32,649 nucleotides of DNA from the NCBI GenBank assembly GCA_021324655.1, contig JAJPIP010000030.1:1-32649 (forward strand). The letters run 5' to 3'. Every line of letters begins with the position of its first letter. The stretch's first letter is position 1. The DNA comes from Pseudomonadota bacterium. GTDB taxonomy: Bacteria; Chloroflexota; UBA5177. The notes under the pieces were generated by a model. The model saw only the letters and a program-made list of their open reading frames with translations. It was not told the origin of the DNA and did no database searches. This document shows, piece by piece, positions 149 to 23,728 of the stretch. The position numbers and the translations under genes were made by a program.

Positions 149-361
149 TCACCCCACGGTGCGGCATAGCGAGTCAGGCGCAATCTCACCGATGGCATGC
201 GCCCCATGCATGGCCGGCGCCTCCTCGCGCGTCATCGGCTCGCCGGCCAGGCGGCCCAGCACCAGGTCAATCGTCTCCGTCTTCGCCCACAAGGGATAGC
301 GCCGCATGATCTCCTGGACGTGGCTATCCTCGATGACGATGTTGGTGCGCACCCAGGCCAT
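149..361 (-). CDS. VapB-type antitoxin, apparently orphan
   Basis: A 70-residue protein beginning MAWVRTNIVIEDSHVQEIMRR, the N-terminal strand-helix pattern of VapB antitoxins of the DUF2191 kind (RTNIVID...A.R..G..TK...V). The strand would enter the ribbon-helix-helix dimer that binds operator DNA. The C-terminal part (MTREEAPAMHGAHAIGEI) resembles the toxin-wrapping tail of such antitoxins. A PIN toxin would be expected immediately downstream, at coordinates below 149, but those 148 bases contain only a stop-rich stretch and the end of another ORF, so no partner is visible. The start codon lies only 29 bases from the divergent cyclase -10 box. Family assignment is from sequence pattern; function is inferred. 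Confidence 0.6.
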   Translation of the reverse strand: MAWVRTNIVIEDSHVQEIMRRYPLWAKTETIDLVLGRLAGEPMTREEAPAMHGAHAIGEIAPDSLCRTVG

Positions 362-389
362 ACACCAGTCGTACGCGTGCCGTGCGTGC

Positions 390-395
390 TACGAT
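390..395 (+). promoter_or_regulatory. Candidate -10 box of cyclase gene 1
   Basis: TACGAT (TAnnnT) ends 9 bases before the ATG at 405, and there is no Shine-Dalgarno sequence in between. The second cyclase copy has the same hexamer at the same 9-base distance, although the surrounding bases differ. The spacing implies a leaderless or nearly leaderless mRNA. No convincing -35 hexamer is visible. Confidence 0.45.
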
Positions 396-404
396 GACGC
401 CACA

Positions 405-3400
405 ATGGACGCCGCAACCGTCATGTGCCCGTCCTGCGGGACGGCCAGCCTCTTCGGCAAGAGATTCTGTGCCGAGTGCGGCTCGGCCCTGCCTTTGCTG
501 TGTCCTGGCTGCGGTAGTGCGATCACGGCCACCCAGAAGTTCTGCGCCGAGTGCGGGACAGCGCTGCGTGGCGAGCCTATCGCCGGAGCGGCTGCTGGGG
601 CGCCGGCCGCCTCTCCCGCCGTGATTCCCTCACCGGCCCCGCCGACGCCGCCGTCCCCTCCTCCGTCGGAAGAGCGCCGCTTAGTCACTGCCCTCTTCTG
701 TGATCTGGTCGGCTTCACCCCCCCCTCCGAGGCGCTCGACCCCGAAGAGGTCCGTGACCTCCAGGCGCAGTACTTCCAGGCCATGGCCGACCAGATCTCG
801 AGATATGGCGGCACCGTCGAGAAGTATGCCGGAGATGCGGTGTTAGCCCTCTTTGGGGCACCGATGGCCCATGAAGATGACGCCGAGCGAGCCGTGCTCT
901 GTGCCCTGGGGATGCAAGGAGCCATCGAACCGGTGGCGGTCACAGCACGAGAGCGTTGGCAGGCGAACCCGCAGATTCGGGTCGGAGTCAATACCGGCGA
1001 GGTGGTGAGCGGGACCTGGGACGCGAGTGGGAGGCAGGACGTCGCGGTCACCGGCGATGCCCTCAATACAGCAGCACGCATTCAATCCGTCGCCGAGCCA
1101 GGAGAGATCCTGGTAGGAGCCGAGACCATGCGTCTCACGCGGCGACGGATCGTCTATGGCGAACGCCGTGATGTGACCCTGAAGGGGAAAGTGGCCTTGG
1201 TGCCGGTCTGGCCGGCGGAAGGCATCCGGGAGGAGTTTGGGGAGCGCTGGGAAGGGTATGAGACGCCGCTGATTGGCCGGGACCGGGAGATGAGCTTGCT
1301 GCTGGAAGCCTGGGTCCGGGCCCAGGGCGGTGAGGGACAGCTGGTCGCCGTGGTGGGGGATGCGGGAGTCGGCAAGAGCCGGCTCATCGCGGAGGCCCTG
1401 GGCCGGATCGCCGCTGCCTCCGCCGTGCGCGTCGTCCGGGCTCGCTCCCTCTCCTACGGTCAGGAGATCTCCCTGTGGCTCATTGCCGATCTCCTCCGCT
1501 CTCTCTTTGGCATCAAAGAGCAGGATGCCCTGCCGGATGTGGCTGCGACGCTACAGATCGCCATTCCGATGCTGCTCGGTGACGCCGAGATACGGGCCGA
1601 AGCTCGCGATGTGCTGGGAGAGGTGCTGGGCCTGCCCATTGGGGAGAGTGCCGTCGCCAAAGCGGGACCGGAAGCCAGGAGGCAGACCTTGATCCGGGTC
1701 CTGCGGGCGCTGCTGGGAGCGACAAGCGACCGAGCGCCGGCCGTCATCGTGCTCGAGGATCTGCACTGGATCGACAATGCGAGCCAGGCGGTCCTGGCCG
1801 AGGTGCTGGCGGATGTGCTGGGGATGCGTGTCCTGGTGCTGGCGGCACAAAGGCCCGGCTGGACAGCGCCGTGGAGCGAGTGGGGCTGGCCGGAGCGAAT
1901 GACCTTGCGGCCTCTCGGCGACAGAGACACGGCGGCCCTGGCGGAAGCGGTGGTCGGGGGAACACGCCTCGCGTCCGACCTGGAACGGCACGTGGCGGAG
2001 CGGGCAGGCGGCAATCCCTTCTTTGTGGAGGAGATGCTGCGCGCTCTCCAGGAAACAGGAGGACTGGAGCGACGCGACGGGCAGATGTCTCTGGTGGCAG
2101 ATGCCGCCAACCGTTTACCGAGTACGTTGACTGAGGTGCTCTTGGCACGTCTGGACCGGCTGGGAGGCGAGACCAAACAGGTGGCCCAGGTGGCGAGTGT
2201 CATTGGCCGTAGCTTCAGCGTGCCGCTCCTGGCCGAGGTGGTGGGACAGGCAGCCTCTCACCTCGACACGCCCCTCACTCAGTTGCAACGTGCCGAGATC
2301 GCCTTTCCGCGGCGGAATCCCGACCTCGAGTACGTCTTCAAGCACGTCAGCATGCGCGATGTGGCCTACAACACCCTCGTGCAGAGACGCCGCCAGGAGT
2401 TGCACCTCCGGACGGCGCGTGCCATCGCTGCCCTGTACCCCTCCGACGAGTACGCCGAGATGATCGCCTACCACTACGCCAGAACCGAGGCGCCGGAAGC
2501 AGCGGAATGGCTGGAGCGAGCGGGCGACCGCGCCGCGGCCGTCTATGCCAACGGGGAGGCTCGGGACCATTACGGGGAGGCGATGCGGCGATTGGAGCAG
2601 CAGGGAGCGGAGCAGGCGGTCGTGGCACGACTCAACGAGAAGATCGGGAGCGTCCTGTTGAACGCCGGCCGCTATGACGAGGGGTTGGAGCCTTTGAGGC
2701 GGGCCGCCGAGACGGCTCGATCCCTGCGGGATCTGGATATGGCAGGACGGGTGACGGCCCGCATCGGCATGGCGCACCGCTACCGCGGCACACCGGACGA
2801 GGGCATTGCCCTGGTCTCCCCGATGATCGATCTCCTCGCGTGGTCCGGCCCATCGGAGGCACTGGCCGCTCTCTATGTGTCGCTCGCGTCACTCTATATC
2901 TTGCTTGGACGCTATTCGGAGCAAATCACCGCCGCCGATCGCAGAGCAGAGGTCGCGCGTGCCATCGGCAATGACCGTTTGTTGGGGGAGGCGCTGGAAC
3001 GCAGGGCGGCGGCGATGTCATCACTCGGACATCCGGAGGAGGCGCTGCAGACGTTCAACCAGGCGATTCCTCTGATCGAGACAGGAGGCGATCTCGCCGT
3101 GCTCTGGCGTGTCTTCAACAACGCGGCGGTCGCGTCGGGAAATCTAGGCAAACTGCGCCAGTCCATGGACTATCTCCACCAGGCGCTCGGTGTCGCCGAG
3201 CGCGTCGGCAACCCCGACCAGACCGCCTTCATTCTCGGCAACATTGGAAGCATACGCATCGAACTCGGCGAGTGGCAGGGCGCGAGAGAGGCATTGGAAA
3301 AGGGTGCCGTCATGCTGGGCGACCAGCAAACCGCGAACGCGGCGACACCGCCGGGGTACCTGGGGCAGCTGGCCCTGTACCAGGGAGACTGGGACGAGGC

Positions 3401-3920
3401 CGGGAGATTGCTGCGCGACGCGCTCGCCATCGGCCTGCGCACCGGAGAGCGTGTCGTCCAGGAGGAAGTCCAGGCCTTCCTCGCGGAGCTCGATGTCCTG
3501 ACCGGCCGTCCGGACGCGGCGATCCGCCGAGTCGAGGGGCTCATCACGGCCGAGGCACCGGATTACCACGTACCGGTCGTCCTGGCATGGGCACTTCTTG
3601 AGGCAGGACGGGTGGACGAGGCGGCGGATCTGGCGAGTCGTAGCGTCCAGCGGGCGCGCGAGGAGATGCAACGCAACTTCCTGATGGACGCACTTCGCGT
3701 GCAGGGGATGGTGCTGCGGAGGCAAGGACGTCATGACGAGGCGGATACGAGCCTCGCCGAAGGCCTCGATCTGGCCCGTGCCCTACCGACCCCCTACGCG
3801 GAGGCTCGCATCCTGGAGCAGTTGGGACAGAGGGAGGAGGCTCTCGCCATCTTCCGGCGCCTGGGCGCTCTGAAGGACGTCGAGCGGCTGGAGCAGGGAG
3901 TGGCCGAGGGCACGGGGTAG
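405..3920 (+). CDS. Zinc-ribbon / class III nucleotidyl cyclase / AAA ATPase / TPR regulator, copy 1
   Basis: A 1171-residue multidomain signalling protein. Two zinc ribbons occupy the N-terminus (C8-C11-C22-C25 and C33-C36-C47-C50), followed by a Pro/Ala-rich linker. The class III cyclase domain (about 88-245) has metal aspartates D100 (FCDLVGFT) and D144 (YAGDAV), purine-recognising K140 and D212, and transition-state residues N221 and R225 (NTAAR). The STAND-like ATPase has Walker A GDAGVGKS (318-325) and Walker B ending LEDLHWID (about 446-457). TPR-like helical repeats fill roughly 650-1150. The protein probably makes cAMP (or cGMP) in response to a ligand sensed by the ATPase/TPR part; that is inference from the architecture. 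ATG 405 is preferred over the upstream in-frame ATG 306 because it precedes the first zinc ribbon, matches the start of copy 2, and follows a -10 box by 9 bases. Confidence 0.88.
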   Translation: MDAATVMCPSCGTASLFGKRFCAECGSALPLLCPGCGSAITATQKFCAECGTALRGEPIAGAAAGAPAASPAVIPSPAPPTPPSPPPSEERRLVTALFCDLVGFTPPSEALDPEEVRDLQAQYFQAMADQISRYGGTVEKYAGDAVLALFGAPMAHEDDAERAVLCALGMQGAIEPVAVTARERWQANPQIRVGVNTGEVVSGTWDASGRQDVAVTGDALNTAARIQSVAEPGEILVGAETMRLTRRRIVYGERRDVTLKGKVALVPVWPAEGIREEFGERWEGYETPLIGRDREMSLLLEAWVRAQGGEGQLVAVVGDAGVGKSRLIAEALGRIAAASAVRVVRARSLSYGQEISLWLIADLLRSLFGIKEQDALPDVAATLQIAIPMLLGDAEIRAEARDVLGEVLGLPIGESAVAKAGPEARRQTLIRVLRALLGATSDRAPAVIVLEDLHWIDNASQAVLAEVLADVLGMRVLVLAAQRPGWTAPWSEWGWPERMTLRPLGDRDTAALAEAVVGGTRLASDLERHVAERAGGNPFFVEEMLRALQETGGLERRDGQMSLVADAANRLPSTLTEVLLARLDRLGGETKQVAQVASVIGRSFSVPLLAEVVGQAASHLDTPLTQLQRAEIAFPRRNPDLEYVFKHVSMRDVAYNTLVQRRRQELHLRTARAIAALYPSDEYAEMIAYHYARTEAPEAAEWLERAGDRAAAVYANGEARDHYGEAMRRLEQQGAEQAVVARLNEKIGSVLLNAGRYDEGLEPLRRAAETARSLRDLDMAGRVTARIGMAHRYRGTPDEGIALVSPMIDLLAWSGPSEALAALYVSLASLYILLGRYSEQITAADRRAEVARAIGNDRLLGEALERRAAAMSSLGHPEEALQTFNQAIPLIETGGDLAVLWRVFNNAAVASGNLGKLRQSMDYLHQALGVAERVGNPDQTAFILGNIGSIRIELGEWQGAREALEKGAVMLGDQQTANAATPPGYLGQLALYQGDWDEAGRLLRDALAIGLRTGERVVQEEVQAFLAELDVLTGRPDAAIRRVEGLITAEAPDYHVPVVLAWALLEAGRVDEAADLASRSVQRAREEMQRNFLMDALRVQGMVLRRQGRHDEADTSLAEGLDLARALPTPYAEARILEQLGQREEALAIFRRLGALKDVERLEQGVAEGTG

Positions 3921-7057: not shown

Positions 7058-10000
7058 ATGGAGATGACGAGCTGTCCGCAGTGCGGGAGCCAGACGCCGG
7101 CCGTGGCCCCGTTTTGCGGCTTCTGCGCCTCTCCCCTTCCCCGACGCTGCCCTGCCTGCCGGCAGGAGAGTCCCCAGGGAATGCGCTTCTGCGTCTACTG
7201 CGCCACGCCGCTGGAGCCGTCGGCCATCCCAGCGTCCGTCGTCCCACCGGCACACGCACCCTCCAGCAGCACTCCCGCCGCGATCCCACCGTCTCCAGCC
7301 GCCTCACCCACCACTGCCCCTTCCCGCCCCGCCGAGGAGCGCCGCTTAGTCACCGCCCTCTTCTGTGATCTCGTCGGCTTCACCCCCCTCTCCGAGTCCC
7401 TCGACCCCGAAGAGGTCCGTGATCTCCAGGCGCAGTACTTCCAGGCCATGGCCGACCAGATCGCGCGCTACGGCGGCACCGTCGAGAAGTATGCCGGGGA
7501 TGCGGTGCTCGCCCTCTTTGGAGCACCAATCGCGCATGAAGACGATGCCGAACGGGCGGTGCTCTGTGCGTTAGGCATGCAGGGTGCCATCGAACCGGTC
7601 GCCGAGCATGCCCGGCACCGCTGGCAGGCGAACCCACAGATTCGGGTCGGAGTGAATACTGGCGAGGTGGTCAGTGGAACCTGGGACGCCTCAGGACGAC
7701 AAGATGTGGCGGTCACCGGAGATGCTCTGAACACGGCGGCACGCATCCAATCCGTGGCCGAGCCAGGAGAGATCCTGGTAGGAGCCGAGACCATGCGTCT
7801 CACGCGGCGCCGGATCGTCTATGGCGAACGCCGTGATGTGACCCTGAAAGGGAAAGTGGCCCTGGTCCCGGTCTGGCCGGCGGAGGGGATTCGGGAAGAG
7901 TTTGGAGAGCGCTGGGAAGGGTATGAGACCCCGCTGATTGGCCGGGACCGGGAGATGAGCTTGCTGCTGGAAGCCTGGGTCCGGGCCCAGGGCGGTGAGG
8001 GACAGCTGGTCACCGTGATCGGGGATGCCGGGGTCGGCAAGAGCCGGCTTATCGCGGAGGCCCTGGGCCGGATCGCCGCTGCCTCCGCCGTGCGGGTCGT
8101 TCGCGCCCGCTCCCTCTCCTACGGTCAGGAGATCTCCCTGTGGCTCATTGCCGATCTCCTCCGCTCTCTCTTTGGCATCAAGGAGCAGGACTCCCTGGAT
8201 GAGGTCGCCGGCAAGCTTCGTGTCGCCATCCCCTCCCTGATTCCGGACCCTGAGCAACGGGCCGAAGCGCTCGATGTGTTGGGGGAGGTGCTGGGCTTGC
8301 CGATTGGGGAGAGTGGGGTGGCGCGCGCGGGTGCCGAGATTCGGCGAACGGCGCTCATCCGGAGCATACGGATGGTGCTGGCAGCCGTGAGTGAACGCGC
8401 ACCGACCGTTATCGTCCTCGAAGATCTGCATTGGATGGATACGCCAAGTCAGGAGGTGCTGACGGCAGTGCTGGGCGATGTGCTGGGACTGCGGATGCTC
8501 ATCCTGGCGGCCAGCCGTCCCGGGTGGAACGCGCCGTGGAGCGAGTGGGGCTGGCCGGAGCGGATGACCTTGCGGCCCTTAGGGGAGAAGGACGCGGCAA
8601 CCCTGGCCGGTGCCGTCTTAGGGGGAGTGCGCGTCGCCCCCGACCTGGAGCGGTATGTGGCAGAGCGCGCCGGAGGCAATCCCTTCTTTGTGGAGGAGAT
8701 GCTGCGAGCACTGCAGGAAACGGGCGGACTGGAGGAGCGAAACGGGCAGATGGTGCTGGTGCCGGGAGCGGCGGAAAAGCTGCCGAGCACACTCACCGAG
8801 GTGCTCCTGGCCCGTCTGGACCGCTTGGATGGGGAGACCAAAGGGGTGGCGCAGGTGGCAAGTGTCATCGGGCGCAGCTTTGGGGTCCGGTTGCTGGCCG
8901 AGGTGATGGGCCAGGCCACCGAGCAACTCGAAGAGCCTCTGGCCCATCTGCAGCGTGCCGAAATCGCCTTTCCCCGGAGAAACCCTGATCTCGAGTACGT
9001 CTTCAAGCATGTGAGCCTGCGCGATGTCGCCTACAACACCCTCGTCCAGAGACGGCGGCAGGAACTCCACCTCAAGACGGCCCGAGCGCTTGCCTCCCTC
9101 TATCCCTCGGATGAATACGTCGAGATCATTGCCTATCACTACGCCAGAACCCAGGTGCCGGAGGCGGCGGAGTGGTTGGAACGCGCGGGGGATCGGGCGG
9201 TCGGGATCTATGCGATGGAGACGGCGATCGGGAACTATCAGGAGGCGCGCACCCGGCAGGACCATATCGGCGGCGAGGTGACCATTCTGGCCCGACTGGA
9301 CGAGAAGCTGGGTGGGGCCCTCCGGACGGTGGGGCGAGCCGACGAGGCGATCCCGGTGCTGGAGCGGGCGGTCGAGACCTACCGCGAGGGACGGGATCTG
9401 GAGGGAGCCGGGAGGGCAGCAGCGGAGTTGGGCCGAGCGTTCAACTACGCCGGCCGGCCGCAAGAGCCGGATCGAGCCCATGATCGAGCTTCTCACCTGG
9501 TCCGGGCCCTCCCCGGCTCTTGCGGCCCTCCACCTCGCCCGCAATCAGAACTTCCAGTTCCTCGGCCGCTACGAGGAGATGCTGGCGCCGGCCGAGCGGG
9601 CAGAGGAGATCGCGGGGGCTATCGGAGACGAGCGTCTGCGGGCGTCGGCGATGGAGCGCCGAGCGAGCGGTCTTAACTTCTTGGGACGGAATGACGAGGC
9701 TATCGCGCTGCTGGAGGAGGCGATCCCGCTGCTGGAGCGGGTGGGGGATCTCGATCGGCTGGGCATCGCGCTGGCCAACCAGGGGGAAGCCCACCGGGTG
9801 CGGGGGGACCTGTCTGCAGCGAGAGACTTCAATGAGCGCGGGCTGGAGGTCTCGACACGCGGCGGCAACCCCTCCCAGGTCGCCTTCACCCTGGTGAACC
9901 TGGCCGAGATCGAGTTGAGTCTGGGGCAGTGGGAGCAGTCCCGAGGGCACCTGGAGCGAGCGGACGAGGTCCTGGCCACCCTCCCCTCGGAGAACTCTGC

Positions 10001-10586
10001 CGCCCCGTACATCCCGCTGCAGCACGGTCATGTCCTCATGGCTCAGGGCAAGTGGGACGAGGCGGACATAGTCCTGCACCAGGGGCTGGCGGCCGCGGCC
10101 CAATCAGGGGACCGGCAAGCTCTGGAGTTTGGCCAGATAGCCCTGGCGGAACTTGAGGTGCTGCGGGGGGAGCCCGCAGGCGCGATCGCGCGGCTCGCGC
10201 CACTGGCGGGACGGGAGGGCAGTTACCGGGTGCAGATCGAGACGATCCTTGCCCGGGCGCTGCTGGATGCGGGCCAGGTGGTCCGCGCTGAGGCGGTGAT
10301 TCGCGAGCCGGTGGATCGAGCACGGACGCAGGGAGACCGCCTGGGCCTGGCGGACGCGTTGCGGGTGCAGGGGATGGTGCTGCGGCGCCAGGGACGGGAG
10401 GAGGAGGCAGCGCCGATCCTGGCCGAGGGGTTAGGGCTGGCGCGAGAGCTTCCCTACCCGTACGCCGAGGCCCGCATCCTGGAACAGATGGGGCAGGTCG
10501 AGGAGGCGCTGGCCATCTTCCGCCGGCTGGGCGCTCAGAAAGATGTCGAGCGGCTGGAGCGGGGAGTGGCCGCGAGCACAGGGTAG
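7058..10586 (+). pseudogene. Zinc-ribbon / class III cyclase / AAA ATPase / TPR regulator, copy 2, frameshifted
   Basis: Close paralogue of the gene at 405-3920. Zinc ribbons: C6-C9-C20-C23 and C31-C34-C45-C48. The cyclase motifs (FCDLVGFT, YAGDAV, NTAAR), Walker A (GDAGVGKS) and Walker B (LEDLHWMD) are all intact. The frame that starts at 7058 leaves the TPR homology near 9465 and stops at 9676. The homology resumes one base further on (PMIELLTWSGPS...) and continues to 10586. A net +1 shift lies at about 9448-9475, next to GCCGGCCGGCCG (9449-9460), where gain of one 4-base unit, or loss of bases mod 3 equal to 2, would explain it. Joined, the protein would be about 1175 residues, like copy 1. 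It may be a decaying gene, a sequencing error, or two functional pieces (cyclase-ATPase and separate TPR). Confidence 0.8.
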
Positions 10587-22748: not shown

Positions 22749-23216
22749 TTATTCCGCCGCGTCGGTCAGCTCCGCGCCCGTGAGCGTATGGAGCTGATGG
22801 GGGGTGATGGCGAAGACGGCATGCGGGGAGCCCGCCGCGGCATAGACCACCGGAAAATCGAGAAGCCTCCGGTCCAGCAGGGCCCGTAATACCTCCCGGT
22901 GCCCCACCGGCGGCACCCCGCCCGGCGCGTACCCGGCATGGGCGATACACTCGTCACGGGTCGCCATCCGGACCTTGCGCGCGCCGATCTCTCGCGCCAG
23001 TGCTCGCGTGTTCACCCGCCGGTCACCCGATGCCAGGACGAGAAGGGGGACGCCGTCCGCCATGAAGAGGAGAGACTTGACGATCGTCGGGACACTCGTC
23101 CCGAGGGCTGCCGCCGCCGATATCGCGGTGCTGGTATCCGCCGGGAGCTCCTGGACCGTGATGTCGTGCCCGGCGAGCCAGGCACGGATCGCCTCGACGC
23201 CCAACTCTGTGGTCAC
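22749..23216 (-). CDS. ybaK: YbaK/EbsC-type aminoacyl-tRNA deacylase
   Basis: A 155-residue YbaK-domain protein that would hydrolyse mischarged aminoacyl-tRNA such as Cys-tRNA(Pro). K47 in TIVKSLLF is the conserved lysine of the active site, and GGVPPVGH (99-106) is the substrate loop. The start is GTG 23216, overlapping the end of the CMD gene by 4 bases (GTGA), so it is coupled to that gene. Confidence 0.88.
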   Translation of the reverse strand: MTTELGVEAIRAWLAGHDITVQELPADTSTAISAAAALGTSVPTIVKSLLFMADGVPLLVLASGDRRVNTRALAREIGARKVRMATRDECIAHAGYAPGGVPPVGHREVLRALLDRRLLDFPVVYAAAGSPHAVFAITPHQLHTLTGAELTDAAE

Positions 23217-23728
23217 TGGTGGGGCGCCTCGATGGCAAAGGTGCGGTTGAATCGCGACCGGAAGTTCTCGAAGGCAATTTCCGCCGTCAGCTCGACCAGC
23301 TCCGGCACCGAGAATTGCGCGCTCAGATCCTCAAACAACCGATCCGGGACGTTGGGAGGGGTCGCCGTCATTCCCTCGACGAGCTGCAAAGTCAGCCGCT
23401 CTCTGGCGTCGAACAGGCCACTCTCCCACCAGGTACCGACCGCCTCGATCTTCTGCTCGCTCAGCCCTGCTCGCCTGCCACCGGCAGTGTGCGCCGCCAC
23501 TCAGAAAGGGCAGCCGACGATCTGGGCGGTGTGGAGCAGGGCCACACGAATGAGCGCCTCGGGTAAGAGACGATCGGTCGTCAGCGCCCGCGCCATAGCC
23601 TGCGCCCCCTGCAGTGCCGGAGGCCAGTAGGCCTGAACGCGCGCCGGAAGAGATACGCCGATCCCTTCCAGAGCAGAGCGGGCCGCGGGCGGCGCGGAAT
23701 GCGCATCGAGCGGTGGAACGCGCGGCAT
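23213..23728 (-). CDS. CMD/AhpD-like protein with in-frame TGA: candidate selenoprotein
   Basis: One frame from ATG 23728 to TGA 23213-23215 encodes 171 residues with a single internal TGA at 23501-23503 (codon 76). The reading around it is QIVGCPF-TGA-VAAHTAGGR, followed by GLSEQKIEAVGTW. Carboxymuconolactone-decarboxylase/AhpD-like proteins have the redox motif CxxC followed by a His at this place (C..C...H); here the second Cys (TGC/TGT) is TGA, giving CxxU if read as selenocysteine. Both sides are free of other defects and keep the family pattern through the last residues. A small hairpin with a GGU loop begins 13 bases after the TGA. No selenocysteine machinery is in the window, so a nonsense mutation remains the alternative. 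Confidence 0.7.
23475..23487 (-). promoter_or_regulatory. Possible bacterial SECIS hairpin
   Basis: On the coding (minus) strand CTGCC-GGT-GGCAG forms a perfect 5-bp stem with loop GGU. The stem begins 13 bases and the loop 18 bases after the internal TGA. Bacterial SECIS elements lie within the coding region just after UGA and have a G, often GU, in the apical loop. The stem is short, so this is only suggestive. Confidence 0.4.

Follow-up and report, generated by a model that had tools for sequence, protein, structure and literature searches.

AhpD-like (COG2128) and CMD-domain selenoproteins carrying a CxxU motif were reported in 2005 from the Sargasso Sea (PMC1088965). AhpD-like CxxU selenoproteins also appear in the GOS survey (PMC2398784) and are covered by reviews (PMC9312934; PMC13188914). 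The claim of the original prediction that the AhpD/CMD family has selenocysteine (Sec) variants thus agrees with the record (PMC1088965; PMC2398784; PMC13188914).

We analysed a 32,649-nt stretch of DNA (the window), which forms contig 67 of a genome of 3.8 Mb assembled in 114 contigs, and compared a CMD-domain protein encoded on its minus strand with these families. The COG2128 (YciW) proteins share with it the CMD/AhpD fold, the CxxU motif, a bacterial SECIS right after the UGA and widespread Cys homologues. However, against TIGR01926, the model given for this family in a 2026 review, the window protein scored 26.8 bits, below the cut-off of 81.8 bits, indicating that it belongs to a different branch. 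Its best NCBIfam match was NF053654, 'YciW-related (seleno)protein' (GroundWater_YciW). All eight aligned members of its clade matched this model (best E 1e-71), but the window protein scored 82.9 bits, short of its cut-off of 310, as expected of a divergent relative and not of an equivalog. The CMD-like CxxU selenoproteins (PF02627), as outlined in PMC1088965 and PMC13188914, have the Pfam domain and the motif in common with it; this label is broad and heterogeneous, and the likeness was drawn from domain and motif. Mycobacterium tuberculosis AhpD and Pseudomonas aeruginosa PA0269 (2O4D, 7XW1) have the same fold, with the redox pair at a helix start. They differ in having Cys where the window protein has the predicted Sec, whereas the window protein has Arg for the relay Glu and Phe for the Tyr/His before the second Cys. 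Since CxxU selenoproteins have long been on record and the NF053654 match lies under its cut-off, the window protein is, as judged by sequence comparison, an undescribed, divergent member of the AhpD-like CxxU type known since 2005.

A single in-frame TGA at the redox site

The following features are referred to below.

23213 to 23728, minus strand: CDS of the predicted AhpD-like/CMD selenoprotein, 171 aa, with Sec as residue 76; stop codon TGA at 23213-23215
23501 to 23503, minus strand: in-frame UGA predicted to be read as Sec, second residue of the CxxU motif, whose first Cys is residue 73
23474 to 23488, minus strand: SECIS-like hairpin with a 5-bp stem (CUGCC/GGCAG) and a GGU loop
22749 to 23216, minus strand: YbaK/EbsC-type aminoacyl-tRNA deacylase-like gene, whose GTG start overlaps the TGA stop of the selenoprotein gene

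The original prediction gave no strand; the gene lies on the minus strand, where its letters run ATG...TGC CCT TTC TGA GTG GCG GCG CAC...CAG TGA. The translation, MPRVPPLD...IVGCPF-TGA-VAAHTAGG...EAPHQ-stop, reproduced the predicted clean frame of 75 codons before and 95 codons after a single internal TGA. The TGA falls on the second redox position of a C-x-x-[C/U] motif (C73-P-F-U76-V-A-A-H80), and the Pfam CMD domain PF02627 spans it (residues 37-117, E 6e-11, 42.6 bits against a curated cut-off of 23), so the placement on the second residue of a CxxC-type motif was borne out. The AAH said to follow the TGA is present; it does not follow directly, because a Val sits between (CPFU-VAAH). The in-frame TGA at 23213-23728 was thus confirmed.

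The overlap with the ybaK-like gene was also as predicted: the bases GTGA are common to the TGA stop of the selenoprotein gene and the GTG start of its neighbour. The two genes are probably co-transcribed. The neighbourhoods of the relatives' genes yielded no ybaK homologue; the neighbour is not conserved, and we rejected ybaK as a conserved partner.

Elsewhere in the window, 306-3920 and 7058-10586 hold large regulator-like genes of the adenylate-cyclase/ATPase/TPR type that closely resemble each other. The latter is seemingly frameshifted: its ORF at 7058-9676 is followed by an overlapping one at 9312-10586, similar to the C-terminal portion of the gene at 306-3920.

Relatives carry TGA at the same codon

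We collected homologues from 101 related genomes and, separately, from a 400-genome sample of the phylum. In the 101 genomes, the TGA of the TGA-bearing homologues (L013-L018, L020, L029, L031, L037-L039) stood at the column of the second CxxC Cys of the others. The 28 top-scoring genes of the phylum survey all carried TGA, one of them twice. Mapping of all TGA-bearing loci examined, which comprise 34 distinct sequences of this phylum, put the TGA at column 76 each time; the other homologues had Cys there. The phylum is most probably Chloroflexota, as the closest carboxypeptidase relatives were for the most part Chloroflexi/Anaerolineae records. Alignment with CMD homologues and inspection of relatives, both suggested at the outset, therefore returned Cys or Sec at this column in CxxC/CxxU homologues and TGA at the same codon in related genomes, a UGA where homologues have Cys/Sec being the pattern of a bacterial selenoprotein. 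These alignments show that the predicted Sec form predominates in one Chloroflexota branch of the AhpD-like family. The plasmid-borne Azospirillum and Nitratireductor homologues were considered as Sec carriers and rejected, both having Cys.

Two loci were unusual. L078 (G369:C1:529533-530036) carries, besides the TGA at the Sec column, another in-frame TGA 26 codons further on. In L040 (G038:C138), near locus 1717, the match begins just past the redox site; the sequence on its reverse strand is GGCTGCCCCCTGTCGGGAGCAGC, which looks like a deletion of the bases between the Cys-Pro codons and the hairpin, UGA included.

A conserved SECIS-like hairpin follows the UGA

The letters CUGCC-GGU-GGCAG occupy 23475-23487 (minus strand), and the loop starts 18 nt downstream of the UGA. 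One position further out, the window sequence has an A-G mismatch where 26 of 28 relatives form a pair. A published SECIS model calls for a stem of 4-16 bp, a loop of 3-9 nt with G in the first two loop positions, and a loop 16-37 nt from the UGA (PMC13188914). The window hairpin (5 bp, GGU, 18 nt) has this geometry; the bacterial SECIS check proposed earlier was thus positive, and the predicted GGU-loop hairpin at SECIS-like distance was recovered and found to be kept in relatives. The computed free energy was -9.7 kcal/mol for a 34-nt stretch and about -7.1 kcal/mol for the hairpin with short flanks, near the published limit (at or below -7.5 kcal/mol). Relative to shuffled sequences the stability was unexceptional for a GC-rich stretch (z = +0.75). 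A single sequence would therefore not prove the hairpin, and we set aside thermodynamic stability as proof, it being not significant for one sequence, in favour of comparative evidence.

Downstream of the UGA, the 28 main-clade sequences could all be aligned gap-free. The hairpin, in which columns 16-21 of the alignment pair with columns 25-30, was formed in 92.3% of cells, compared with at most 76% in slid controls, and six cells had changed on both sides. All 500 shuffles gave lower values for the percentage of pairing, the variety of pair types and the covariation score, and RNAalifold recovered the same stem unprompted. The third base of codon +5, in the 5' arm, was T in 33 of 34 sequences, whereas T ended just 80 of the 1022 comparable NCN codons in the remainder of these genes (8%). 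A formal probability product would overstate this case because the sequences are related; the codon-versus-codon contrast is nonetheless internal. Judged from these alignments, the putative hairpin is kept at the RNA level in relatives. No Rfam match was found at the selenoprotein gene.

The genome encodes the selenocysteine machinery

A search of the genome for selA, selB, selC and selD, named in the original prediction as a check, found all four. The tRNA-Sec (selC) scored 75.4 bits against a cut-off of 47, and ARAGORN called it SeC with anticodon TCA. SelA scored 488 bits. selB lies on two contigs, with its GTPase/N-terminal half at the end of C44 (283 bits) and its winged-helix C-terminal half at the start of C28; the middle is unseen because the contig boundary breaks the gene. 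SelD scored 378 bits and has one TGA of its own, within RCAGUASK, with a GGUCGG/CCGACC hairpin after it (L042, G000:C36:8188-9108, plus strand). From this sequence, SelD is a predicted Sec-containing selenophosphate synthetase. Another gene, of the same orientation, reaches as far as selD.

A formate dehydrogenase alpha-like gene has TGA in ARIUHSS (L169, G000:C52:198196-198948, plus strand), the usual Sec site of FdhA. Just upstream of it is a putative FdhD-like frame, so named on its sequence. A second CMD/AhpD-domain gene has one TGA, in NGCQYUMTSH (L168, G000:C54:5405-5542, minus strand), making its product another candidate selenoprotein. Since SelD, FdhA and the second CMD gene also carry TGA, UGA recoding is not special to the gene at 23213-23728, and the genome holds at least four candidate selenoproteins.

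Across genomes, 33 of 36 TGA carriers had selA, as did 31 of the other 36. As most of the sampled phylum has selA, finding it does not tell TGA carriers from Cys carriers, and we dropped selA co-occurrence as an uninformative test.

Alternative explanations for the internal TGA

A sequencing error or recent nonsense mutation in a gene for a Cys protein or in a pseudogene would require one change (TGC or TGT to TGA), and the genome is a 114-contig assembly. However, 34 distinct homologues from many genera carry the same TGA at the same codon, 33 of them without further stops; in addition, the third base in the hairpin is conserved and the Sec machinery is complete. We consider this explanation very improbable, in line with the earlier judgement that a random nonsense mutation was unlikely.

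The same comparison bears on a two-protein arrangement, in which the UGA would end a 75-residue product and the adjoining GTG would restart a 95-residue product, as the mechanical ORF beginning at GTG (23500) allows. Such a split would fall within the redox pair and the CMD domain, the Cys homologues are one chain, and relatives carry ATG, CAG, GCG and others in place of a conserved start codon; we give this arrangement almost no weight. Genome-wide use of UGA as a sense codon (Trp or Cys) would also leave the frame open through the UGA. It is extremely unlikely, as TGA terminates 8 of 16 ordinary window genes checked and the selenoprotein gene itself, the internal TGAs encountered fall on redox positions or established Sec sites, and the UGA-reading tRNA is the tRNA-Sec. 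Recoding of this UGA as Sec is the reading that we retain.

Predicted fold and loss of the relay Glu

AlphaFold2, run with an 8-row alignment, gave an all-helical model with a mean pLDDT of 79 and values of at least 90 for most of residues 61-150. A helix starts at residue 74, with Cys73 just before it and Sec76 inside it. The best PDB matches were the AhpD-like PA0269 structures 7XW1, 2O4D and 2IJC (E 2e-7) and Atu0492 (2GMY). Foldseek ranked 7XW1 first (TMt 0.87), with 2O4D at TMt 0.83; PA0269 and Atu0492 were also the best profile matches (PA0269, E 3e-24). Profile and fold (7XW1, 2O4D, 2GMY) thus both place the protein in the CMD/AhpD superfamily (PF02627).

The AhpD proton relay, as given in PMC3141380, comprises Glu, Cys, His/Tyr, Cys and His. 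In the window protein the Glu position, 12 residues before the first Cys, is Arg, and the His/Tyr position is Phe. The final His is kept as His80, four residues after Sec76, and is mostly Asn in the rest of the clade. The relay Glu was absent from all 28 main-clade Sec sequences and present in 8 of 14 Cys homologues, a contrast that is a correlation along a tree and not a test. Among the 34 Sec sequences, only five of a second clade had Glu (L029, L037-L039, L082). AhpD activity cannot be assumed, because the closest clade is uniformly without the relay Glu and mostly without the His. No mention of this Glu absence was found in the accessible parts of the literature on these selenoproteins. 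A tentative explanation, which we regard as rather doubtful, is that the clade is a near-obligate Sec AhpD-like branch in Chloroflexota that discarded the relay Glu and mostly the His, perhaps because a selenol has already lost its proton at neutral pH; its members may catalyse a reaction different from the AhpC-reducing adaptor function of AhpD.

Proposed mechanism

We infer Sec insertion, the redox cycle and its substrate; computation shows the open frame, the column shared by Sec and Cys, the genes of the machinery, the conservation of the hairpin and the fold. The ribosome would arrive at the UGA at codon 76, and SelB with Sec-tRNA(Sec) would bind the hairpin that lies a short way further on, within the coding region. 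Selenocysteine would then be inserted in place of termination, as in established bacterial selenoprotein biology. The product would be an all-helical AhpD-like protein with Cys73 and Sec76 at a helix start; the pair most likely alternates between a reduced thiol/selenol state and a selenenyl-sulfide, and its substrate may be a peroxide or an oxidised partner. With the Sec/Cys column, the machinery, the SECIS geometry and the TGA of relatives all favourable to the candidate selenoprotein originally predicted, we put the probability at about 0.96 that 23213-23728 encodes a selenoprotein, UGA76 being read as Sec via SelB and the SECIS, with a probable Cys73/Sec76 redox cycle.

Ordinary annotation would cut this gene at codon 75 or label it a pseudogene. 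The loss of the relay Glu offers a testable case of what selenium gives an enzyme.
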